Source: Porticoccaceae bacterium (GTDB lineage Bacteria > Pseudomonadota > Gammaproteobacteria > Pseudomonadales > Porticoccaceae). Taken from it: DNA of 50,930 nucleotides. The stretch's first letter is position 1, and each line of letters starts with the position of its first letter. Made by a program: the position numbers and the translations under genes. The DNA lies in assembly GCA_002689135.1 (NCBI GenBank), contig NZEU01000015.1, positions 1 through 50,930 of the forward strand, written 5' to 3'. Below the pieces are notes generated by a model. It saw only the letters and a program-made list of their open reading frames with translations, had not been told where the DNA came from and ran no database searches. Below, piece after piece: positions 5,395 through 47,269 of the stretch.

Positions 5395-7698
5395 ATGGCG
5401 GACAATATAAGCGTCAAAAAACGAAACGGTCGTGGTAACGAACCACTAAACATTGATAAGATACATGACATGATGGAATATGCTTGTGAAGATATAAGTG
5501 GCGTATCAGCCTCACAGGTAGAAATGAATAGTGGTCTACAATTTTATGATGGTATAACAACAGACGAAATACAACAGATATTAATCAAATCGGCCTCCGA
5601 CTTAATATCTTTAGAAAATCCTAATTACACATATGTTGCTGCTAGACTTTTACTATACTCATTAAGAAAAAAACTATTTGGTAAATTATGGGATCACCCA
5701 CACTTTGCTGATCAAGTAAAAAGTTGTGTTGACGCTCAAGTTTATGACTCAGAAATATTTGATAACTATGAAAGAAAAGATTTTGATAGAATGGAGTTAT
5801 GGTTAAAACATGATAGAGATTACGATTTTACTTACGCAGGTTTAAGACAAGTCATAGACAAATATCTAGTACAAGATAGAAGTACAGATCAAATATTTGA
5901 AACACCACAATTTATGTACATGATGATTTCTGCTACTTTATTTGCAAAGTATCCTAAATCAACAAGAATGTCATATGTAAAAAAATACTATGACGCTATT
6001 TCAACTTTCAAAATTAACATACCTACTCCTGTTATGGCAGGTGTTAGAACACCTATGAGACAATATGCTAGTTGCGTATTAGTAGATGTTGATGACACCT
6101 TGCCATCCATTTTTTCAAGTGATATGGCAATAGGAAGTTATGTTGCTCAAAGAGCAGGTATTGGTATCAATGCAGGTCGTATTAGAGGTATCAATAGTAG
6201 AATTAGAGGTGGTGAAGTACAACACACAGGTGTTATTCCTTTTCTTAAAAAGTTTGAGTCAACCGTTAAGTGTTGCACACAAAATGGTGTAAGAGGTGGT
6301 AGTGCTACGGTACACTTCCCAATATGGCACCAAGAGATAGAAGACATTATAGTTTTAAAAAATAATAAAGGTAGTGAAGATAACAGAGTTAGAAAATTAG
6401 ATTACTCAATACAATTATCAAAACTATTTTATGAAAGATTTATTGAGAACAAAGATATTACATTATTTTCACCACATGAAGTGCCTGAATTATATGAGGC
6501 ATGGGGATCACCAGAGTTTGATGATCTTTACGAAAAGGCAGAAAGAAAAACTAGTGTGAAAAAAACAAAAGTAAATGCTCAGGAACTAATCTTTGACATA
6601 CTAAAAGAAAGAGCAGAAACAGGTCGTATCTATATTATGAATATAGATCATTGTAATACACACTCTAGTTTTAAAGACAGAGTTTATATGTCAAACTTAT
6701 GCCAAGAAATTACTTTACCTACTGACCCTATACAACACATAGACAAAGAAGGTGAAATTGCATTATGTATTTTAAGTGCAATCAATGTCGGTAAGATTAA
6801 TAGAAGATATGAATTAGAACCATTATGTGATTTAGCAGTTAGGGCATTAGATGAAATAATAGATCATCAAAAATATCCAGTAGTGGCTGCAGAAATATCT
6901 ACAAAGGCAAGAAGAAGTTTAGGTATTGGTTATATTGGCCTTGCTCACTATCTTGCAAAGAAAGGTTATAAGTATGACCAGAAACTTGCATGGCGACAGA
7001 TAGATAAATTAACAGAGGCGTTTCAATACTATCTACTAAAAACATCAAATCAATTAGCAAAAGAAAAAGGTAAGTGTAAATACTTTGATAGAACAAAATA
7101 CGCAGATGGTATTTTACCTATTGACACATACAAAAAAGAAGTTGATGAAATAGTAAAAAGAGATTTAACATTTGATTGGGAATGGTTAAGAAAAGAAATT
7201 AAGAAAGATGGTTTAAGACATAGTACACTATCGGCACAAATGCCTAGTGAATCATCATCTGTTGTTTCTAATGCAACAAATGGTGTAGAACCACCAAGAG
7301 ATTTTATTAGTGTTAAGAAAAGTAAAAAAGGTCCTTTAAAACAAGTAGTACCTGAATATGCAAAACTAAAAAACAATTATACACTTTTATGGGATATGAA
7401 ATCTAATGAAGGTTATATAAATGTTGTTTCTGTTATGCAAAAGTATTTTGATCAGGCAATATCAGGCAACTGGTCATACAATCCAGAGAACTATGAAGAG
7501 GGACAGGTACCATTATCAGTAATGGCTGAAGACTTATTGAATACATATAAGTATGGTTGGAAGACTTCTTATTATCAGAATACATATGACGCTAAGAAAG
7601 ATATTGACGAACCATCACATCCAGTTGGTTGGACAGATAATGTGCCAGAAAAAGAAGAAGTAAAAGACGAAGAGAATTGTGAAAGTTGTACTATATAA
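5395..7698 (+). CDS. nrdA: Ribonucleoside-diphosphate reductase alpha subunit, class Ia
   Basis: Catalytic subunit that reduces ribonucleoside diphosphates to deoxyribonucleotides for phage DNA synthesis. Length 767 residues. An ATP-cone-like N-terminus (KKRNGRGNEPLNIDKIHDM) is followed by the reductase barrel with the typical ASCVLVD cysteine, GVRGGSATVHFPIWH, the NLCQE active-site cysteine and the PSESSS phosphate-binding motif. The C-terminal CESCTI carries the mobile redox Cys pair. A perfect AAGGAGG lies 4 nt before the ATG. It works with the NrdB encoded at 8879 and probably with the glutaredoxin at 28277 as electron donor. Confidence 0.95.
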   Translation: MADNISVKKRNGRGNEPLNIDKIHDMMEYACEDISGVSASQVEMNSGLQFYDGITTDEIQQILIKSASDLISLENPNYTYVAARLLLYSLRKKLFGKLWDHPHFADQVKSCVDAQVYDSEIFDNYERKDFDRMELWLKHDRDYDFTYAGLRQVIDKYLVQDRSTDQIFETPQFMYMMISATLFAKYPKSTRMSYVKKYYDAISTFKINIPTPVMAGVRTPMRQYASCVLVDVDDTLPSIFSSDMAIGSYVAQRAGIGINAGRIRGINSRIRGGEVQHTGVIPFLKKFESTVKCCTQNGVRGGSATVHFPIWHQEIEDIIVLKNNKGSEDNRVRKLDYSIQLSKLFYERFIENKDITLFSPHEVPELYEAWGSPEFDDLYEKAERKTSVKKTKVNAQELIFDILKERAETGRIYIMNIDHCNTHSSFKDRVYMSNLCQEITLPTDPIQHIDKEGEIALCILSAINVGKINRRYELEPLCDLAVRALDEIIDHQKYPVVAAEISTKARRSLGIGYIGLAHYLAKKGYKYDQKLAWRQIDKLTEAFQYYLLKTSNQLAKEKGKCKYFDRTKYADGILPIDTYKKEVDEIVKRDLTFDWEWLRKEIKKDGLRHSTLSAQMPSESSSVVSNATNGVEPPRDFISVKKSKKGPLKQVVPEYAKLKNNYTLLWDMKSNEGYINVVSVMQKYFDQAISGNWSYNPENYEEGQVPLSVMAEDLLNTYKYGWKTSYYQNTYDAKKDIDEPSHPVGWTDNVPEKEEVKDEENCESCTI

Positions 7699-7713
7699 TG
7701 AAAGGGATAAATT

Positions 7714-8361
7714 ATGCAATTTGTAGCGAATATACCATACATAAAATGTTTCGTTAAGAAAGAATATCTTTACGATTTAAAAAAAGGTTACGGTGAGTTT
7801 GAAGAGTGTGTTTTACTTGCAGTTAAAAGTATGCAAGGTAGAGCGCTGATGTTTGAAGCGTATCTTCCTCAATACGGTGCTTGTTTTGACAAGTTTCCTA
7901 TATCTGCCTTTGTATGGAAAACAGATATAAAACAAGAAGAACAATTAAGACTAGGTGAACTATGTTTATGGGATGGTTTTAGTTATGACATACACATTTG
8001 GGCTAAAAGACTATTAAAAAATTGTGATGTAGAAATTTTTGTACCTGGTAAAGGCAAGAAGAAAGGTGAATATTTGTTTACAATAGATAGTAGTCACACT
8101 GATCCTAATATTATAAATGCTAGTGTTAGTGAAGTGCCAAGTGAACACAAACAACATAACTTTGGTAAGTTAGACAATGGTCAATTCTTTGCTCAACCTA
8201 ATAATAGAATGTATTGGTTTGAACAAAGTTTAACACCTAAAGAATTAAAGACGCCTGACTTTAATGTATCTACAAGATATTTCTTTAGTGAACAAGAAGA
8301 GAAATGGGCATTTGGTGATAGTGACAAATACTTTTATGATGAAAAAATAAGGGACAAATGA
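7714..8361 (+). CDS. Conserved phage protein of unknown function between nrdA and nrdB
   Basis: A 215-residue soluble protein rich in aromatic residues, with no signal peptide or membrane segment. It starts after AAAGGGAT, 16 nt downstream of nrdA, and its end overlaps the start of the next gene (ATGA). Position suggests a link to nucleotide metabolism, but no motif supports a specific role. I do not recognise a named family. Confidence 0.75.
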   Translation: MQFVANIPYIKCFVKKEYLYDLKKGYGEFEECVLLAVKSMQGRALMFEAYLPQYGACFDKFPISAFVWKTDIKQEEQLRLGELCLWDGFSYDIHIWAKRLLKNCDVEIFVPGKGKKKGEYLFTIDSSHTDPNIINASVSEVPSEHKQHNFGKLDNGQFFAQPNNRMYWFEQSLTPKELKTPDFNVSTRYFFSEQEEKWAFGDSDKYFYDEKIRDK

Positions 8362-8882
8362 TTTGGTTAGAAAAACATAATATAGACTCTGAGGATACTA
8401 TTAAAACAATTAGTTTTATAAATAAATACTTTGAGACAAATAAGTGCTGTGCAGAGCACCCTAATTGTGAACATCCCAAAAGTCAAACTGATAATATGCT
8501 TTTTAATAATGATGAGGTAAGAGCGTATAAAGATAGTTTTTATAAAGCACTTAGGTCATTTTTAAAAAAAGATTATCAATTAATTTATGAAAAAGCTTGG
8601 TCGTATTTTGCTACCGAGTTAAATAATTTTACATGGCATGACCATGTGAATATCAGAAGTAATATTGAGAAGGTTGAAGAGTACTCTGGTATTATATATT
8701 TAAATCATAGTGATAGAGGAACATTATTTGAAGATGATAACTTTTTTTGGTCTATCAAACCTAAAGTTAATCATTGGTATATATGGCCTTCACATTTACA
8801 ACACACGCCACAAGTTGGCACAACTGAAAACATGAGATATATAATTGCAACAGCAGTAGGAGTAAAAGTAGCACTAAAATGA
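8358..8882 (+). CDS. Putative 2OG-Fe(II) oxygenase
   Basis: A 174-residue protein resembling the small putative 2-oxoglutarate/Fe(II) oxygenases found in marine T4-like phages (TIGR02466-like). The candidate metal site is HDH at residues 94-96, with the distal histidine in PSHLQHTPQ (H146/H149) and a 2OG-binding arginine at R160. SGIIYLN forms the usual strand after the first histidines. It overlaps both neighbours by 4 nt and sits inside the nrdA-nrdB operon. Its substrate is unknown. Confidence 0.65.
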   Translation: MIWLEKHNIDSEDTIKTISFINKYFETNKCCAEHPNCEHPKSQTDNMLFNNDEVRAYKDSFYKALRSFLKKDYQLIYEKAWSYFATELNNFTWHDHVNIRSNIEKVEEYSGIIYLNHSDRGTLFEDDNFFWSIKPKVNHWYIWPSHLQHTPQVGTTENMRYIIATAVGVKVALK

Positions 8883-9979
8883 AAACCGTATTTAACAAAG
8901 AAAAAAATTTAGACGCAACAAAGCAATCAATGTTTTTTGGTGCTGATCTTGCAGTACAAAGATATGATACATTTAAATATCCTATCTTTGATAAACTAAC
9001 TCAACAACAATTAGGATACTTCTGGCGACCAGAAGAAGTATCTTTACAAAAAGATAGAAACGATTATGCTCAACTATCAGAAGCGCAAAAGTTTATATTT
9101 ACATCTAACTTAAAATATCAAACTATGTTAGATAGTGTACAAGGTAGAGGACCTTGTTTAGCATTTTTACCATTTGTATCTTTACCCGAATTAGAAAGTT
9201 GTATTGTGACTTGGGATTTTATGGAAACAATACATAGTAGAAGTTATACCTACATTATTAAAAACTTATACTCACAACCTAGTGATGTATTCGATAATAT
9301 AATTAAAGATGAAAAAATAGAGAAGAGAGCTAAATCTGTAACCGAAACATACGATAATTTAATTCTATTAGGTTACAAATATAAACTTGACAATAAGAGT
9401 GTTAGTGAATATGATTTAAAGAAAGCATTATGGAAAGCACTAGTCACGGTTAACATACTTGAAGGTTTAAGATTTTATGTATCATTTGCTTGTTCATTTG
9501 CATTTGGTGAACTTAAACTTATGGAAGGTTCTGCTAAGATTCTATCACTTATTGCTAGAGATGAAAGTCAGCATTTAGGTGTATCACAAAAAATTATAAA
9601 CAGCTATAGAAATTTTGAGAATGATAAAGTGATGAACAAAGTTATTAAAGATACTGAAAAAGAAGTCTATGCTCTTTATGATGAAGCACTTAACGAAGAA
9701 AAGCGTTGGGCGACTTATTTGTTTAGTCAAGGTTCTATGATCGGTTTATCAGAAAAACTATTACATCAATATGTAGAGTTTATCTGTAATCGAAGAATGA
9801 GAGCCATCGGACTTGAATCAAAGTATGAAACTAAAACTAATCCTTTACCTTGGACTGAACATTGGTTAAATAGTAAAGGTTTACAAAATGCACCACAAGA
9901 AACAGAAATAGAAAGTTATGTTATTGGTGGCATTAAACAAGATGTTAAGAAAGATCAATTTAAAAAGTTTAAACTCTAA
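8879..9979 (+). CDS. nrdB: Ribonucleoside-diphosphate reductase beta subunit
   Basis: Carries the di-iron centre and tyrosyl radical that start catalysis in NrdA. Length 366 residues, in the NrdB range. Visible ligand motifs are WDFMETIHSRSYTYI (metal-binding Glu and His plus the radical-site region) and ARDESQHLG (second Glu/His pair). The gene overlaps the preceding oxygenase by 4 nt and its stop overlaps the following small gene. With nrdA it makes a complete class Ia enzyme. Confidence 0.93.
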   Translation: MKTVFNKEKNLDATKQSMFFGADLAVQRYDTFKYPIFDKLTQQQLGYFWRPEEVSLQKDRNDYAQLSEAQKFIFTSNLKYQTMLDSVQGRGPCLAFLPFVSLPELESCIVTWDFMETIHSRSYTYIIKNLYSQPSDVFDNIIKDEKIEKRAKSVTETYDNLILLGYKYKLDNKSVSEYDLKKALWKALVTVNILEGLRFYVSFACSFAFGELKLMEGSAKILSLIARDESQHLGVSQKIINSYRNFENDKVMNKVIKDTEKEVYALYDEALNEEKRWATYLFSQGSMIGLSEKLLHQYVEFICNRRMRAIGLESKYETKTNPLPWTEHWLNSKGLQNAPQETEIESYVIGGIKQDVKKDQFKKFKL

Positions 9980-14040: not shown

Positions 14041-14911
14041 TGATGAAGCTAAGGCTCTCTTTAAAAAAAATATTCAATCAGTTGAGATAGGTACTCACAA
14101 CTATTGTAATAGGACTTGTACATTTTGTCCTTTATCAGTAGAGGGTGTGAATAGAAGAAACTTTAAAAATACCATCTTTATGAAAGATGAAATGTACGAA
14201 AATATTATGAAACAATTAAGTGAAATTAACTTTGCAGGTCGTTTAGATTTCAGTAGATACCACGAACCCACATCTCATAAAAAATATATTTTAGAAAAGA
14301 TTAAAATTGCTAAAAGATATTTACCATCTGTAAAGATAAGTCTTAACACTAATTCAGATTACATAAACAAAGAATATCATCAACAACTTGTTGAAGCAGG
14401 TGTAGATAGTTTTGCTTTTCAAGCATATATGAAAAATGGTGCTAACAAGTTTGATGAAGACGAGGTGTTTAAAAGAATTAATTATATAACTGATAGATTA
14501 AGCGCACCTAGAATAGATAAAGAACAACACAGAAACAAAGAGTGGATTATCTACAAACTACCTGAAAGATTTAAAGGTAAAATACACGCAAGAAACTATT
14601 GGGTAAATGGTGTGAACAGAGCAGGTACGGTATTAGATACTAACTATACAAGAACTAAACCATGTACAAGTATGAACAAAGGTGTTTACATAGACTACAA
14701 TGGTAGTATGACAGCGTGTTGTGATATGTTGACACCAGAACTACATAGTAAATGGGAAGTAGGCAATTTAGAAAAACAACCAAATATATTTTTAAACTAT
14801 ACAAGTAAATTCTATACAAAATTTAGAGAAAGAATTACAAAGGCAGAATGGTATCCTAATTCACCTTGTATAAAATGTAAACGAGATGTGAGAGGAAGTC
14901 AGGCAAGATAA
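14033..14911 (+). CDS. Radical SAM protein with SPASM-like C-terminal cysteines
   Basis: A 292-residue protein. CNRTCTFC (C25, C29, C32) is the CX3CX2C site that holds the radical 4Fe-4S cluster. The C-terminus carries PCTSMNKGVYIDYNG, TACCDM and PCIKCKRD, a SPASM/twitch-like set that would bind an auxiliary cluster. Family members modify peptides or sugars by radical chemistry (for example dehydrogenation, epimerisation or deoxygenation). The stop overlaps the asparagine-synthetase-like gene, so the two are likely co-translated. The substrate cannot be read from the sequence. Confidence 0.8.
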   Translation: MTNDEAKALFKKNIQSVEIGTHNYCNRTCTFCPLSVEGVNRRNFKNTIFMKDEMYENIMKQLSEINFAGRLDFSRYHEPTSHKKYILEKIKIAKRYLPSVKISLNTNSDYINKEYHQQLVEAGVDSFAFQAYMKNGANKFDEDEVFKRINYITDRLSAPRIDKEQHRNKEWIIYKLPERFKGKIHARNYWVNGVNRAGTVLDTNYTRTKPCTSMNKGVYIDYNGSMTACCDMLTPELHSKWEVGNLEKQPNIFLNYTSKFYTKFRERITKAEWYPNSPCIKCKRDVRGSQAR

Positions 14912-16710
14912 TGTGTGCAATACATGGTATATTAGATAAGAGAGGACACTTTATTGATAAAATGATAGAGGCTGCTCATCATAGAGGACCTGATGGTAAT
15001 GGTAAGTTTGTTAGTGATGATATTACATTAGGCCACAACTTATTATCTATTGTAGATAAAGAAACAAACTCAAAACAACCTTGGATATTTGAAGACACAA
15101 TATTAGTTTATAATGGAGAGATATACAATTACAAAGAATTAAGAGATAACTTAAATTATAACTTTAAAACAGATACCGATACTGAAGTTTTATCAATAGG
15201 TTTAAAACTTGAAGGTAAAGACTTTATAAAAAAACTAGATGGTATGTTTGCCTTTGCATGGTACAATAAAAATTCAAAAGAACTTGTAATGGCTAGAGAT
15301 AGTAATGGTACTAAACCTTTATACTATGGTTTGTTAAGCAACAGACTATGTTTTTCTAGTGAGGTAAAAAGTTTATTAGCAATAGGATTTGAAAGAAAGA
15401 TTTGTAAAGAAGCACTTAAACATTATTATAAACAAGGATACAACTCAGGTTATTTAACTTTATTTGAAGGTATAAAAAAGTTTGTACCAGGTCAAGTATT
15501 AAGTTATGATGTTCATACAGGTAGAAGATTTACATATAATTTAAATGATAAAAAGATAGAACTTAATACAACATTTAAAAATGTAGAAGAAGAAATCGCA
15601 GAAAGAATAAACAAGGCAGTTAAAATGACACTTATGGGTCGTAGAAAGATTGGTTTGTTTTTAAGTGGTGGTATGGATTCTACATCTATATTATATGAAA
15701 TGAAAAGACTAGGTGTTAATCCTAACACATACACCTCAAACTTTGAAACAACTTTACCAGGTAGTGCATTGAACGAAGACTCTGAGGTTGCAAAAAAGTA
15801 TTGTGACGAATTACAGATAGAAAACAATAGACTTCATCAAAATGAAAAAGACTTTGTTGACGCAATGGATAAAACATTTTATGCTTTAGAAGAACCAAGA
15901 CAAGGTAAAAGTTTTCCTACTTATTACAATACAAATAAATTTATGTCAGATAATGGTGTCATAGTCACATTAAGTGGTGATGGTGGTGATGAGATATTCA
16001 CAGGATACAAACATCATGTTAAAGGTGATTGGCGAAACAAATTAAATTCTTTAGGCATGAGTCATAGAGGTTTAAATAATCCTGAATTACAAATTACACT
16101 AGATCAACAAATGGATTATTTACATGAGTGGTTACCTACAGCACCTATTCAAGGTGACGCTATCAATGATATGATGTATATAGAATGTATGAATACATTA
16201 GCTGAAGATTTTTTAATTAGAAACGATAAGTTAGGTATGAACTTTAGTATGGAGGCTAGATTCCCTCTTATGTGTAATGTAATAAGAGATTATATAAGAA
16301 CTATACCATCATCATATAAAGCAGTACTTAAACACAAAGCAAATAACAAAAAGACATTTAAAGCAAAAACATTATTTAAGAAAGCATATGAACGAAGATT
16401 ACCTGAGTATATTGTTAGAAAGAAAAAAACAGGTTGGCGTTTCCCAACAGACGAAATACTAATAGGTAACGCTTCTACACCTGGCAGAGATGATAGTATA
16501 TTAAGACAATATATTTTTGAAACATTAAAAGATAAAGAAGTAAGAGATATATTTGAATTAGATGACGACACTATTTGGAACTTTATGGATAATAAAAACT
16601 TTACACCTAATCAAGGTTCTAAATTTGCGCCAGCGATGTTAAGACAAAAAGAACTATTTACAATACTCAATTTCGCAGTATGGAAAAAAGTATTTAAAAT
16701 GAGCATATAA
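14911..16710 (+). CDS. asnB: Asparagine synthetase B-like glutamine amidotransferase
   Basis: A 599-residue two-domain enzyme. The N-terminal Ntn glutaminase has Cys2 (MCAIHGILD), HHRGPDG and VYNGEIYN. The synthetase domain has the pyrophosphatase loop LSGGMDS (residues 251-257) and a later SGDGGDE. It would use glutamine ammonia to amidate an adenylated carboxylate. In O-antigen and capsule clusters such proteins often amidate uronic acids rather than make asparagine, and its neighbours here favour that. The length is slightly above E. coli AsnB (554). Confidence 0.85.
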   Translation: MCAIHGILDKRGHFIDKMIEAAHHRGPDGNGKFVSDDITLGHNLLSIVDKETNSKQPWIFEDTILVYNGEIYNYKELRDNLNYNFKTDTDTEVLSIGLKLEGKDFIKKLDGMFAFAWYNKNSKELVMARDSNGTKPLYYGLLSNRLCFSSEVKSLLAIGFERKICKEALKHYYKQGYNSGYLTLFEGIKKFVPGQVLSYDVHTGRRFTYNLNDKKIELNTTFKNVEEEIAERINKAVKMTLMGRRKIGLFLSGGMDSTSILYEMKRLGVNPNTYTSNFETTLPGSALNEDSEVAKKYCDELQIENNRLHQNEKDFVDAMDKTFYALEEPRQGKSFPTYYNTNKFMSDNGVIVTLSGDGGDEIFTGYKHHVKGDWRNKLNSLGMSHRGLNNPELQITLDQQMDYLHEWLPTAPIQGDAINDMMYIECMNTLAEDFLIRNDKLGMNFSMEARFPLMCNVIRDYIRTIPSSYKAVLKHKANNKKTFKAKTLFKKAYERRLPEYIVRKKKTGWRFPTDEILIGNASTPGRDDSILRQYIFETLKDKEVRDIFELDDDTIWNFMDNKNFTPNQGSKFAPAMLRQKELFTILNFAVWKKVFKMSI

Positions 16711-16713
16711 ATA
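16706..16713 (+). promoter_or_regulatory. Putative T4-type late promoter box TATAAATA
   Basis: Exact TATAAATA spanning the asnB-like stop codon, 15 nt before the ATG at 16729. An ATG at 16715 opens a five-codon mini-ORF (MKGRL) whose stop overlaps the real start. A GAAAGGAAG ribosome site precedes 16729. This would drive the dehydrase/Gmd part of the island late. Confidence 0.45.
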
Positions 16714-16728
16714 TATGAAAGGAAGATT

Positions 16729-17889
16729 ATGAAATATCCATTGGCTTGTGATACTTGGGATCAAAGAGAAATAAAAGCAATACATGAGGTCATAGAGGGT
16801 GGTAGATATACCATGGGACCTAAAGTTAAGCAATTTGAAAAAGAGTTTTGCGATTACTTTAAATGTGAGGACGCAGTAATGGTCAATAGTGGATCAACAG
16901 CGAACTTACTCATGTTAGCAATATTAAGAGAGAAATACAAACTAGGGGGTAATATCATTGTTCCCGCAGTTTCATGGTCTACTACTTACTTCCCAGCATA
17001 TCAATATGGGTTTCATCTTAATTTCGTAGATATAGACAAAGATACTCTAAACATAGATACCACTAAAATAGAGGCGGCTATAGACGCAGAAACGTGTGCT
17101 ATATTCGCAGTTAATCTTTTAGGTAACTCATGTGATTATAAGAAGATTAAAGAGATTGCAGATAAACATGGTCTAGTATTGATAGAGGACAATTGTGAAA
17201 GTCTAGGTGCAATCAATAACGATTTGGATAAGTACACAGGTACAATAGGTAAAATGGGCAGTTTTAGTTTCTTCTTTAGTCATCATTTACAAACTATGGA
17301 AGGTGGCATGATTGCTTGTCAAAGTAAAGAAGACGCAGATTATATAAGATCATTAAGGGCGCATGGTTGGTGTAGAGACTTACCCGACAATAATAACATC
17401 TACACAAAAACAGGTGACCCATTTAAAGATAGTTTTACATTTGTCACGCCAGGTTATAGTGTCAGACCTTTAGAGATGAGTGGTGCAATAGGAAGTGTAC
17501 AACTAAAGAAATGGCCTGAGATGAGAAGACAAAGAGTATTAAATGCAGAATACTTTACAGAAAAATTTAAAGATTTGTTTGGTATTAGAATACAAACAGA
17601 AATAGGTTCATCAAGTTGGTTTGGTTTTTCAATCATATTAGAAAATCATTTAAAAGGCAAACGAGATGAACTAGTTAAAAAATTAAGAGATAGTGGTGTT
17701 GAGTGTAGACCTATTGTTGCAGGTAACTTTATGAAAAATCCTGTTATAGATTACATAACATACCTAGACCATAACAATTATGATAGTGCAAATTATATAC
17801 ACGATCATGGTTTGTTTATTGGTAATGATGTAAGAGACTTAAAAGAAAACATAGATATGGTCTATGATATAATAAAAGGATTAGTATGA
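16729..17889 (+). CDS. PLP-dependent sugar 3-dehydrase (ColD/RfbH-like, His in place of Lys)
   Basis: A 386-residue member of the DegT/DnrJ/EryC1/StrS fold. NSGSTANLLML binds the cofactor phosphate and IEDNCESLG (D154) contacts the PLP ring. At the usual Schiff-base lysine the motif is SFFFSHH, which aligns with SFHAIKN of aminotransferases and puts His185 at the Lys position. That substitution, together with EDNC, marks the 3-dehydrases ColD and E1/RfbH, which remove the C3 hydroxyl rather than aminate. The next gene is Gmd, whose product GDP-4-keto-6-deoxymannose is the ColD substrate. The predicted product is GDP-4-keto-3,6-dideoxymannose. Confidence 0.8.
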   Translation: MKYPLACDTWDQREIKAIHEVIEGGRYTMGPKVKQFEKEFCDYFKCEDAVMVNSGSTANLLMLAILREKYKLGGNIIVPAVSWSTTYFPAYQYGFHLNFVDIDKDTLNIDTTKIEAAIDAETCAIFAVNLLGNSCDYKKIKEIADKHGLVLIEDNCESLGAINNDLDKYTGTIGKMGSFSFFFSHHLQTMEGGMIACQSKEDADYIRSLRAHGWCRDLPDNNNIYTKTGDPFKDSFTFVTPGYSVRPLEMSGAIGSVQLKKWPEMRRQRVLNAEYFTEKFKDLFGIRIQTEIGSSSWFGFSIILENHLKGKRDELVKKLRDSGVECRPIVAGNFMKNPVIDYITYLDHNNYDSANYIHDHGLFIGNDVRDLKENIDMVYDIIKGLV

Positions 17890-43494: not shown

Positions 43495-43583
43495 TGAACG
43501 ATAAATATACGATAGAAGAGATAATAGAGGCAATGAAAAAAATATGTCCTGAGGCGTGGGACAATGACGAGGATTACTCTTAA
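43494..43583 (+). CDS. Very small acidic ORF between tail genes
   Basis: A 29-codon ORF that begins in the TAATG overlap with the previous stop and ends in TAA overlapping the next ATG (TAATGG). It fills the gap exactly, which supports it, but a product of this size has no recognisable motif. Confidence 0.35.
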   Translation: MNDKYTIEEIIEAMKKICPEAWDNDEDYS

Positions 43584-44575
43584 TGGCAATAATTAGACAA
43601 CGATTACCTATACCAGGACCATTTGATATAAGAATAGGTCTACCTAGAGATAAAGGTTTTGACGCTGGTAAGGCAAGAAAAAGATTACAAAATACAAAAC
43701 CTAATGTTAACACAACCGTTAACAGATTTAGGTCTATGGTTGCAGGTGCAGAGGGATTTTATAGACCTGCTAAGTTTTTAGTTGTATTAGAATTTCCTAG
43801 AACATTTACAAACGAAACTCTACAAGGTATGGAGTTTTTAGAATACGAAACAGATTTTCAATTCTTAAATCAAACTAAAAATAATTTAAGAGAGAGATTG
43901 TTTTTCTTTTGTGACGCTGCTAAGTTACCAGAGAGAACAATAACTGATACATCTGCTACAGGATTTTATGGGCCAGAACGAAACATGGCAAGAGGTTTAG
44001 AATTTAGTACAATGGATTTAACATTTATGTTAGATTCAGAATTATCAGAAAGAGTTGTATTTGAATCATGGCAAAACTTAATTGTCAATAATAGAACATA
44101 CAATTTAAATTTCTATGATGAATACACAGGCAGAGTATTAATATATCCATTACACGAAAATAGAAACGAAACATCAAATAGTAAAGTTGATGGTGTAAGT
44201 AATTATGGTTCACTTGCTAACCTAACATTAAGTGGATATTATTGTGAATTAATAGAGGCATATCCTAAAACTATTGCACCTATTGATTTAAACTATGCAA
44301 CAAAAGATCAAATAGCAAGACAGACAATAACCTTTAATTACAGATATTGGAGATCAAACGCAAATTTAAGAACAAATGAAGATACACAATTTGAAGGTGA
44401 TATTGATGGTGTAGGTGAGATAAAGGATGCAAGATTTAAAGGACCGTTCGGTGGTATAATTAGTAAACTACCACCAGAGATTAGAAGAGCGGGACGTGAT
44501 GTATTGAATCAGATTAAAACGAGATTCCCAATTGGGAGAGTGTTTGGTGGCAGAGTATTCCCACCATTCTTTTAA
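43583..44575 (+). CDS. 54: Baseplate tail-tube initiator gp54-like protein
   Basis: A 330-residue protein close to T4 gp54 (320). The core FFFCDAAKLPERTITDTSA, ERVVFESWQNLI, YCELIEAYPKTIAPIDLNYA and TITFNYRYW is the tube-fold pattern shared by tail tube gp19 and the initiator gp54. It would form the ring on which the tube polymerises. It could also be read as a gp19-like tube protein, but size and context favour gp54. Confidence 0.65.
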   Translation: MAIIRQRLPIPGPFDIRIGLPRDKGFDAGKARKRLQNTKPNVNTTVNRFRSMVAGAEGFYRPAKFLVVLEFPRTFTNETLQGMEFLEYETDFQFLNQTKNNLRERLFFFCDAAKLPERTITDTSATGFYGPERNMARGLEFSTMDLTFMLDSELSERVVFESWQNLIVNNRTYNLNFYDEYTGRVLIYPLHENRNETSNSKVDGVSNYGSLANLTLSGYYCELIEAYPKTIAPIDLNYATKDQIARQTITFNYRYWRSNANLRTNEDTQFEGDIDGVGEIKDARFKGPFGGIISKLPPEIRRAGRDVLNQIKTRFPIGRVFGGRVFPPFF

Positions 44576-44595
44576 ATAATAAGGAGTGAAACATA

Positions 44596-45291
44596 ATGGC
44601 GTTACCAATAAATGAGGTGCCGAAATATTCGACAAAACTTCCTTCTAACGACCTATTAGTAAATTACAGACCTTTTTTAGTAAAAGAGGAAAAAGTTATG
44701 CTAATGGCATTAGAGAGTGATAATGATGAAGAGATTAGACAAGCAGTTATAGATACGGTTCAATCGTGTACCTATGGCAATGTTGATGTCTCTAAACTAC
44801 CTATCTTTGATTTTGAACATTTATATTTAAAGATCAGAGGTAAGTCAGTAGGTGAGGTAATTAAATTAAAGTTAAAATGTCCTGATGATGACAAACAAGT
44901 GGTTGATTATGAACTTAATTTAGAAGATGTTAAGATTGACACAACAAAGAAACCTAATAACAAAATAGAGTTTGAAAAAGGTTACGGTGTCATACTTGAT
45001 TATCCTACAATTAAATCATATACAGGTACAAAGTCAGAGACAGAGAATAACTTTAGTTTGTTAAAAGACTCTATCAAAACTATCTACAAAGGCGATGATG
45101 TTTATGATAGAAATAATATTACCGAAGAAGAGTTAGACGAATATGTTAATAGTTTGACGCAGAAACAATATCAAAAACTGATAGAGTTTTTTACTACTAT
45201 GCCTAAAATAAGACATAGAATAGAGTATGAAAACCCTAAATCAGGTAAGAAATTTGCGTTAACTTTCAACGGTGCTTCTGATTTTTTTTAA
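44596..45291 (+). CDS. 26: Baseplate hub assembly protein gp26-like (tail assembly chaperone N-part)
   Basis: A 231-residue protein resembling gp26 of T4-like phages: a beta-rich start (VNYRPFLVKEEKVMLMALES), FEHLYLKIRGKSVGE and a helical end. It terminates on TAA immediately after a run of eight T. The -1 frame is open from there into the gp51-like ORF, so the gene probably encodes both a short form and a longer fusion, as phage tail-assembly chaperones do in lambda (G and GT). Confidence 0.75.
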   Translation: MALPINEVPKYSTKLPSNDLLVNYRPFLVKEEKVMLMALESDNDEEIRQAVIDTVQSCTYGNVDVSKLPIFDFEHLYLKIRGKSVGEVIKLKLKCPDDDKQVVDYELNLEDVKIDTTKKPNNKIEFEKGYGVILDYPTIKSYTGTKSETENNFSLLKDSIKTIYKGDDVYDRNNITEEELDEYVNSLTQKQYQKLIEFFTTMPKIRHRIEYENPKSGKKFALTFNGASDFF

Positions 45292-45334
45292 TTACCCTTT
45301 CACATGAAAACCTAGAAAATTTTTATCGTGTGAA
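45282..45334 (+). promoter_or_regulatory. Programmed -1 frameshift site (slippery run and hairpin)
   Basis: Bases 45282-45288 are the slippery heptamer T TTT TTT in the gp26 frame, followed directly by the gp26 stop TAA (45289-45291). Ten nt downstream TTCACATGA (45299-45307) pairs with TCGTGTGAA (45326-45334) to give a 9-bp stem including one G-U. The arrangement of slippery run, stop, spacer and hairpin matches known -1 frameshift signals. Confidence 0.75.
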
Positions 45335-45476
45335 CTTTTTGTTAATGCAACATCATAAATATTCATTAACAGAATTAGAGAATATGTTACCATGGGAAAG
45401 GGAAATATATATTGATATGTTGATTCAGCATATCAAAGATGAGAATCAAAAACTAAAAGAGAGACAAAGAAAATGA
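45288..45476 (+). CDS. 51: gp51-like C-terminal extension of gp26 (-1 frame)
   Basis: 62 codons in the -1 frame beginning inside the T run. The zero-frame stop lies just upstream and no ATG precedes residue 20 of the extension, so it has no own start. LENMLPWEREIYIDML resembles the conserved C-terminal part of tail-assembly chaperones. The fusion with gp26 is 293 residues. Its stop overlaps the ATG of the holin-like gene (ATGA), as expected for a translated gene. An internal ATG at 45345 could make a shorter protein. Confidence 0.7.
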   Translation, partial: LITLSHENLENFYRVNFLLMQHHKYSLTELENMLPWEREIYIDMLIQHIKDENQKLKERQRK

Positions 45477-45748
45477 ACTTACAAATAAAAGAAAAGGTCT
45501 TAGGAACGATCAAGTGGTGTTGGTGGTTTTTAAAAGAAGAATTACCACAATTTTTATCTAACTGGCGAACCGTGCCTAGACTTATGATGATTGCATATGC
45601 GTATGCCTTCATTGAAGTGATACAATGGTTTATGGCACTAGAAGCGCCAAACAATGCACAAGCAGGTCTAGTATCAGTAGTAGTTGGTGCTGGGGCAGCC
45701 TGGTTTGGTTTATATGTTAATGGTAAAAAAACAAACATACAAAAATAA
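45473..45748 (+). CDS. Small membrane protein, putative holin
   Basis: A 91-residue protein overlapping the -1-frame stop by 4 nt. Two hydrophobic segments (LMMIAYAYAFIEVIQWFMAL and GLVSVVVGAGAAWFGLYV) flank a short polar loop, with charged ends. This topology is common in phage holins, and NWRTVPRLMM fits a widespread holin-like family. It could release the M15 endolysin, but a tail-related role is possible from its location. Confidence 0.55.
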   Translation: MNLQIKEKVLGTIKWCWWFLKEELPQFLSNWRTVPRLMMIAYAYAFIEVIQWFMALEAPNNAQAGLVSVVVGAGAAWFGLYVNGKKTNIQK

Positions 45749-45751
45749 TAA

Positions 45752-47269
45752 ATGGCAAACTTTAGCGAACTATTAAAAGATCAGAAACTTAAACAAGATA
45801 AAGAGACGGTTGCGATTGCAGAGGCCGCTCAAACTTATTCTTTAAATATACAAAAAGAAAAGGGTTTTGGTCAAGCGTTTATCAAAGGTGATAAAGACAA
45901 TGACCCAATATCAAATGCTGCTGTATCTGTTATACAAAACTTTCAAGGCGAACTAGATACAATTGCTGATAATGATTTTACATATTTAAAAGATTTAATT
46001 GCTAAGTACAATACATTTTTTGATGAGTTGCCTAAAAGTATTGACAAAGAAAGATTTACTGCTAAAGAAGGAAGATACTTTGCAGAGGTTATACGACCTA
46101 CCATAGAACAACTAAATGAGATTGCAGGTCCTGTTTTACAAACTAAACTTGCATTTAGAGATTTAGTTAAACAATTCAAACCTTTAAAACTTGCTGCTAG
46201 AACACTAGGTGGTATACCTATTCTTGGTACAGCTATAACTAGAAAAGTAGAACGTATAGAAGCAGGTGAACAAGAGTTAAGAAGAGCAGAGAGAAAAAAA
46301 GGGCAAGAAGAAACAAGACAAGCAAGACAAAGTATAGAGGATGATTTGACAGGTTTTGGTGCAGATCAACCATCAGCTGCATTAGAAGAACAGATAGAAG
46401 AAAATCAATCAACAAGACGAGATGTATTCGCTGATGTACCTAGAGCTGCTTCTGTGCAAAAGTCTGCTGCTAAAGAAGAAAATTTAGAAGAACAAAAAGC
46501 AGTACAAGAAGACAGATATAATGAACAAAAAAATCTGTTTGAAATGATTGCTGAAAACACATACGAATCAAAAGAATTACTAGAAAAATTATTAGAAGAA
46601 GAAGAAGGTTTTTTAAATAACTTTGGTGGTCTTGCTGCCGCTGGTGGTGGGGTAGCCGCAGGTACTGGTGGTACACTGGCTGCAAGTAAGTTGCTTAAAA
46701 AGAAAACTACTACAGCAGCAACAAAAACTGCTACTAAACAAGCAACTAAAAAAGCAACATCTAAAGTATTAGGTAAAACATTACTAAAATCTGCTGTTAA
46801 GAAAATACCTATAATCGGTTTAATTGCAGGTTTAGGTTTTGGTATAGGTCGATTGATGTCAGGTGATATGCAAGGTGCTGCTATGGAAGTTGCCTCTGGC
46901 GCTGCTAGTACAATACCAGGTTTTGGTACAGCCACAAGTGTGGGTATAGACGCTGCTCTGGCTGCAAAAGATATTAAGAACGCAGAAAAAGATATAGAAG
47001 GTGTAGTACAAACTGCTGAAGATGTTAAAACAGATAATATGAAAGATTTGGTTAATATCGACTCAAAAAGAACCGTTGTTAGAACTACATTAGAAACAGA
47101 CACTTTAGAAAATCTATTACAGAAATTAGTACCTGAAAATGGTAGTCAAAATAACACGGTTGTTGCACCCAATAATACAATACAAACCGCTAATACGACA
47201 AATGTATTAGGTAAAATGACTTCAAAAAACAATGACAACACCGTTGTTCAATTGAAAAACGTCTATTAA
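45752..47269 (+). CDS. 29: Tail tape-measure protein, gp29-like
   Basis: A 505-residue protein. The N-terminal third is helical and charged, then an Ala/Gly-rich hydrophobic region (about 290-390, with stretches such as FGGLAAAGGGVAAGTGGTLA) and a Thr/Asn-rich end. Long helices with a hydrophobic insertion, plus location between gp51 and gp48, fit the T4 gp29 baseplate/tape measure (590 residues). No enzymatic domain is visible. Confidence 0.65.
   Translation: MANFSELLKDQKLKQDKETVAIAEAAQTYSLNIQKEKGFGQAFIKGDKDNDPISNAAVSVIQNFQGELDTIADNDFTYLKDLIAKYNTFFDELPKSIDKERFTAKEGRYFAEVIRPTIEQLNEIAGPVLQTKLAFRDLVKQFKPLKLAARTLGGIPILGTAITRKVERIEAGEQELRRAERKKGQEETRQARQSIEDDLTGFGADQPSAALEEQIEENQSTRRDVFADVPRAASVQKSAAKEENLEEQKAVQEDRYNEQKNLFEMIAENTYESKELLEKLLEEEEGFLNNFGGLAAAGGGVAAGTGGTLAASKLLKKKTTTAATKTATKQATKKATSKVLGKTLLKSAVKKIPIIGLIAGLGFGIGRLMSGDMQGAAMEVASGAASTIPGFGTATSVGIDAALAAKDIKNAEKDIEGVVQTAEDVKTDNMKDLVNIDSKRTVVRTTLETDTLENLLQKLVPENGSQNNTVVAPNNTIQTANTTNVLGKMTSKNNDNTVVQLKNVY

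Follow-up and report, generated by a model that had tools for sequence, protein, structure and literature searches.

gp26 and gp51 of a T4-like phage as the probable short and −1 frameshifted long forms of one tail assembly chaperone gene

In the 50,930-nucleotide stretch of DNA analyzed here (the window), gp26 and the open reading frame (ORF) that continues across its stop codon in the −1 frame very probably constitute a single gene that encodes two tail assembly chaperones, the longer of which would arise by a −1 slip. According to this mechanism, most ribosomes would stop at the TAA and release gp26, the short form. A minority would move back by one nucleotide on T TTT TTT and go on to make a 293-residue long form that ends in the "gp51" domain, perhaps aided, in the clade of the window phage, by a hairpin that lies 10 nt after the heptamer. 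If the pair works as lambda G/GT does, the short form would coat the tape measure protein, and the long form, the less abundant of the two, would bring tube subunits to it. Slippage itself, its efficiency, the role of the hairpin and the binding partners are what we infer here. The initial annotation had already proposed gp26 and gp51 as one frameshifted gene, and this proposal is supported by conservation of the heptamer and the frame, selection on the −1 frame, the lack of a ribosome site for gp51 and gene copy number.

The gp26–gp51 junction and its surroundings

The match of gp26 to PF12322 reaches 196 bits, above the curated cut-off of 24.5, and its match to phrog_150 spans profile positions 5–232 of 282 (Table 1). 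The −1 frame also matches the C-terminus of phrog_150 (positions 231–281 of 282, 8.3e-8), such that gp26 and the −1 frame match successive parts of phrog_150 and one family profile thus covers both frames. Its stronger match is to positions 56–118 of 121 of phrog_634 ("baseplate hub assembly catalyst"). The zero frame of gp26 ends GAT TTT TTT TAA; the T8 run, with zero-frame T TTT TTT followed by TAA, was read at 45282–45291 as first described, as was the ATGA at 45473–45476, where the −1 frame ends in overlap with the next gene (45473–45748). The −1 frame likewise proved to be open as far as 45476 and to lack an early ATG, the first one being codon 22 (45345) counted from 45282, although an earlier GTG at codon 17 (45330) had gone unmentioned. 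The 9-bp hairpin reported 10 nt after the heptamer was found as well, with 45299–45307 pairing with 45326–45334 through one G-U. Only one PF12322 match occurs in the whole bin of the window (G000), where no second in-frame long copy was found, and the phage contig may be incomplete.

Relatives have T6-C, T6-A, T6-G or T7 where the window has T8. An indel or assembly artefact at the T8 run was considered and ruled out; T8 is also present in five other contigs with 99–100% gp26 identity (L002–L006), and the site is retained in near relatives.

Table 1. Features of the gp26–gp51 locus, with positions in the window.
Feature	Position	Strand	Description
Tail tube / tube-initiator family protein	43583..44575	+	phrog_45 7.9e-33; PF23849 6.6e-7
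AAGGAG, likely gp26 ribosome-binding site	44581..44586	+	9 nt upstream of ATG; sequence
gp26	44596..45291	+	231 aa, zero frame; putative G-like short chaperone; PF12322 7.4e-58, phrog_150 9e-61
Slippery heptamer T TTT TTT, zero frame	45282..45288	+	within T8 run 45282–45289; sequence
−1 frame extension, gp51-like (T-like domain)	45282..45476	+	64 codons; phrog_634 2.2e-27
Zero-frame stop TAA, directly 3' of heptamer	45289..45291	+	sequence
Predicted stimulatory hairpin	45299..45334	+	45299–45307 pairs with 45326–45334; 9 pairs (one G-U), 18-nt loop, spacer 10 nt
Small 91-aa protein	45473..45748	+	ATGA overlap with gp51 stop; phrog_10198 (unknown function) 7.7e-17
505-aa protein, candidate tape measure	45752..47269	+	position only

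The protein encoded directly upstream of gp26 shares 34% identity with the Mosig tail tube initiator. The ATGA-coupled 91-aa ORF separates gp51 from the large gene that follows, and small ORFs are likewise placed in Mosig and HTVC008M. For the 505-aa protein, family profile searches returned no tape-measure family match, and pairwise comparison showed no similarity to the HTVC008M and Mosig proteins at the equivalent place. An antisense ORF of 232 aa (46405–47103, minus strand) inside the 505-aa gene is probably a by-product of composition. Elsewhere in the window, in regions 14911–17889 and 5395–9979, the phage encodes both subunits of ribonucleotide reductase and a 599-aa protein with weak aminotransferase/amidotransferase-like matches, the latter adjoining a protein of the aminotransferase family. 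Rfam gave no match to the window at gathering thresholds.

Conservation of the heptamer and of the −1 reading frame

All 79 viral or own loci (78 viral_contigs loci plus the window) and 15 of 17 phage records have T TTT TTN in frame and gp51 in −1, the misses being CBA120 and phiA8-29, both Ackermannviridae; the combined figure is 94 of 96 loci. The gp26 search had kept 80 viral_contigs loci, of which two truncated ones (L026, L055) were dropped before the 96-locus count. L001 is the window itself and L002–L006 are near-identical to it; the loci are partly related, with 72 distinct 100-nt junctions among the 94. A later set of 47 loci from bacterial and archaeal assemblies (genome_contigs), which played no part in forming the idea, has the heptamer and a −1 gp51 in 45 of 45 readable junctions, the count leaving out L145 (masked) and L149 (truncated). 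When single distant gp26 proteins served as queries, they yielded 1, 0, 15 and 2 loci. The heptamer is also present in L150, L166 and L167, which stand outside every count, L150 being the same 156,281-base phage as L092. A second in-frame T TTT TTN elsewhere in gp26 occurs in only 13 of 94 genes, the window's included, which gives the background rate; the heptamer at the junction is therefore more than chance. The gp26 proteins diverge to 18–31% identity with heptamer, stop and −1 frame still kept, a favorable outcome of the comparison of relatives that the initial annotation had proposed. Locus L145 (CP070695.1), from a bin titled Heimdallarchaeota archaeon chromosome, has a partial gp26-like match beside an N stretch, perhaps a binning or assembly matter.

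Among the 94 loci, the last base of the heptamer is C in 56, T in 30, A in 6 and G in 2, and the zero-frame stop comes immediately after the heptamer in 27, one codon later in 66 and eight codons later in 1 (Mosig). In L085, L103 and L106 the stop lies eight codons after the heptamer, giving a short form with eight further residues. The run of T measures T6 in 64 loci, T7 in 6 and T8 in 24, that is, in the window and 23 others. Eight is a length at which slippage by RNA polymerase becomes plausible, so a polymerase that added or dropped a U on T8, with ordinary ribosomes reading the fused mRNA, would give nearly the same protein. The prevalence of T6 argues against transcriptional slippage, since it indicates that the conserved thing is the phased heptamer rather than a long homopolymer. 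A stable RNA stem under selection downstream, as described below, also counts against it, such stems being typical of ribosomal shifting, and transcriptional slippage is consequently judged very unlikely.

Two observations bear on how translation enters the −1 frame. The first concerns the codons ahead of any possible start. Across the 22 loci of the near clade, 10 of them distinct, the stretch from the heptamer to the first possible start has 3, 4 and 10 variable columns at −1-frame positions 1, 2 and 3, and codon differences in this frame are 119 synonymous versus 68 non-synonymous, compared with 14/170 and 25/154 in the other frames. The −1 frame is thus under protein-level selection from the heptamer on, before any start codon. 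The second concerns the starts themselves. As a class, gp26 starts have a mean anti-Shine-Dalgarno (anti-SD) energy of −4.51 kcal/mol, with 51 of 115 at or below −5, whereas the first starts of the −1 ORF average −1.16 kcal/mol versus −1.56 at random sites and reach −5 in only 3 of 114 loci; this test leaves out L123, L148 and repeated junctions.

These observations weigh on the alternative that gp51 is a separate gene, translated from an internal start (GTG at 45330 or ATG at 45345 in the window) or by reinitiation after the TAA. A separate short ORF is indeed listed in 9 of 16 annotated records (e.g., P-SSM2, HTVC008M and Mosig), and when the strongest of all internal starts is scored instead of the first, 26 of 114 loci come to −5 kcal/mol or below, for which reason an internal gp51 start may operate in some phages. 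Against a separate gene stand the first starts that lack a ribosome site, their position, which varies from 3 to 21 codons after the heptamer, the −1 ORF of Desulfovibrio phage 7757, in which ATG, GTG and TTG are all absent, and the conservation as protein of the codons ahead of the first start. As a general explanation it is extremely improbable. The initial annotation had named a gp51 with its own start and ribosome site as the observation that would speak against frameshifting; among the homologs checked, there is no conserved start position. Instead, the −1 ORF overlaps the short ORF and has no start of its own at its front, the arrangement by which frameshifted chaperones are recognized.

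The Ackermannviridae are the exception. In CBA120 (L095, 3235–3456), phiA8-29 (L098) and five further loci (L151, L157, L161, L162, L164), the −1 frame runs open through the gp26 stop and its product is weakly gp51-like, and the canonical slippery heptamer is absent from all of them, including the five, which were inspected among the 15 from one distant-protein search and enter no count. The junction ATTTTCATT-TAA-TTTTTGAAATTGATT is identical in CBA120 and those five. Matches of the CBA120 and phiA8-29 −1 frames to gp51 families are weak (0.0028 to phrog_634 and 0.0034 to phrog_9633). This family may shift at a non-canonical site or initiate the −1 product in some other way.

RNA structure downstream of the heptamer

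The RNA that follows the heptamer is more stable than expected from the protein it encodes. Against synonymous recodings of 66 distinct junctions, the mean z was −1.89, with z < −1.5 in 45 and p ≤ 0.05 in 40, as compared with z < −1.5 in 12% of 330 control segments inside gp26 (mean −0.24) and a mean z of −0.55 in a later gp51 stretch (n = 61). Dinucleotide shuffles of 65 sequences gave a mean z of −1.53. These tests left out L056, repeated 56/57-nt stretches, the two Ackermannviridae records and the genome_contigs loci. The structures differ between clades, and p was ≥ 0.5 against synonymous recoding in 8 of the 66 junctions; lineages with a heptamer and no stable downstream structure include HTVC008M, Rhizobium and Agrobacterium phages and Desulfovibrio 7757.

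The hairpin of the window itself departs only moderately from expectation. Its z was −2.3 versus dinucleotide shuffles and −1.5 versus synonymous recoding, the latter not significant (p 0.10). In 10 near relatives the stem of the window clade is paired in 95.6% of cells, with some pairs broken in 2 of the 10 sequences and no compensatory changes found among them.

Short and long chaperones, T4 genes 26 and 51, and related systems

A predicted model of gp26 (pLDDT 86.6, pTM 0.81) was compared with 350,542 PDB chains by Foldseek, which ranked the HK97 tail assembly chaperone 2ob9 first, at an E value of 0.92 and probability of 0.54 (not significant). A second structural aligner likewise placed 2ob9 first (Z 7.4, below the tool's caution level of Z 8; rmsd 3.7 over 83 residues), matching gp26 residues 1–85 at 8% identity. 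Next came YqbN 3klu (7.2), rbstp2171 3fgx (6.8) and 5ir0 (5.1), which we take to belong to the same chaperone family as 2ob9, and the first match outside the chaperone kind had a Z of 4.0. The first four matches are confined to residues 1–94, and the C-terminal half of gp26 has no comparable structural match. A gp26 sequence profile found nothing convincing among PDB sequences (best E 0.16).

gp26 lies downstream of a tube-family gene, and the putative tape measure gene that follows is without homology support. Given the tail tube gene directly upstream, a lambda-like role is the most likely, in which many short and few long chaperones would sit on the tape measure and the long form would recruit tube subunits. 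A review of T4 refers to earlier claims of gp26 in the baseplate hub (Leiman et al., 2010; PMC3004832), and hub membership would count against a pure chaperone role.

Among the records opened, gene copy number follows the form that gp51 takes. Of those chosen, the 17 in which a −1 gp51 frame is open have one PF12322 gene each, and the nine with a long in-frame gp51, T4 included, have two gp26-family genes each. These records were picked from the listed matches for diversity rather than at random, and for two of the 17, CBA120 and phiA8-29, the −1 frame gives only weak matches to gp51 families. Homologs with an intact, separate gp51 gene had been named at the outset as possible counter-evidence; the nine phages opened that have one all encode a long gp26-family protein with the gp51 tail in frame, plus a second gp26-family gene, and this speaks for a fused product, not against one.

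T4 itself illustrates the two-gene form. PF12322 matches both T4 gp26 (8.8e-64) and gp51 (3.9e-52), which on sequence grounds are paralogs. T4 gp51 spans phrog_150 positions 13–280 of 282 and also matches phrog_634, and so comprises a gp26-like domain and a gp51 tail. T4 gp26 matches the short form, and T4 gp51 matches, nearly end to end, gp26 together with the −1 extension; the two genes of T4 point in opposite directions, whereas the window phage would make both forms from one gene. In T4, RB43 and Va1, the gp51 domain extends upstream into the gp26-like domain, a further point against gp51 as a gene with a start of its own. RB43 has tandem gp26-family genes, long then short. In Vibrio phage Va1 (L102, 1311–2653) the in-frame pair is in tandem on one strand, short then long, the reverse of RB43 and unlike the divergent pair of T4.

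A tree of 46 sequences, with an assumed root, groups the two-gene forms in one clade (support 97; 74 with Va1), within which gp51 forms are a clade (support 100). T4-type gp26 is not monophyletic, as RB43 gp26 falls among gp51 forms (90), and support at the deep nodes is weak. The frameshift form is found in Aeromonas phage Aeh1 and Vibrio phage ValKK3, which are also Straboviridae. From these relationships we infer a direction from frameshift to duplication. Taken together, the data suggest that gp26 is the short and gp26-gp51 the long tail assembly chaperone.

The slippery heptamer of lambda is another sequence, and the lambda gene order is V-G-T-H. The likeness to lambda G/GT lies in a short form, a −1 extended long form and a slippery site at the end of the gene (for the role in lambda, see PMC5009743). 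The chaperone locus of Pseudomonas phage Adele and the Vandenendeviridae, a different phage family from that of the window phage, resembles it in frameshift layout; there, according to the part of PMC12846349 consulted, a −1 frameshift was deduced because the −1 frame is open and the short gene carries an invariant GTTTTT close to its end. T4-like tail assembly chaperones were identified by Vladimirov, Gautam and Davidson (2022; Virology 566:9–15), as cited in PMC12846349 and PMC10885494, and these citing papers indicate that poly-T frameshift signals and two-gene forms of T4-like chaperones were already in print there. Judged by subject, the −1 frameshift chaperones of that study are the same protein family as gp26/gp51. 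No paper devoted to the gp26/gp51 pair was among the literature matches listed, a search outside which Vladimirov et al. (2022) lay, and the portions consulted of PMC3711429, PMC9024508 and PMC12859696 contain nothing on gp26/gp51 frameshifting.

Several earlier remarks can be read anew. In the portions consulted, Sullivan et al. (2010; PMC3037559) describe cyanophage gp51 as lacking its first ~200 residues and Aeh1 as lacking gp51, and the words frameshift and gp26 are absent from that main text. The missing ~200 residues are gp26, and Aeh1 does have gp51, in the −1 frame. Leiman et al. (2010), in the sections consulted, list gp26 and gp51 together as hub assembly chaperones and describe gp51 as essential and of unknown function. 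The two frames are annotated as joined in none of the 16 annotated phage records opened that have gp51 in the −1 frame, and the seven that do not give a separate short ORF list nothing there; mis-annotation of these frames is often met and is a common annotation fault.

The finding is ordinary for its kind, a further example of a mechanism described in related phages and not a new kind of system, and much of its wider meaning may already be contained in Vladimirov et al. (2022). What is added here is breadth, the copy-number complementarity in the opened records, the protein-preserving structure test, the annotation gap and the Ackermannviridae exception. It bears on the statement, in the relevant part of a review, that long-tailed phages other than T4 widely conserve G-T frameshifting (Atkins et al., 2016; PMC5009743). 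It is perhaps slightly more likely than not that T4-like phages must make both a short and a long chaperone and do so interchangeably, by a phased T6 heptamer with separately evolved hairpins in most lineages, by duplication in T4, RB43 and Va1, and by a shift at a non-canonical site in the Ackermannviridae. Duplication would then have freed T4 from recoding, and T4 gp51, named an assembly catalyst, would be the long form; a protein whose function was unknown in 2010 thereby gains a testable role.
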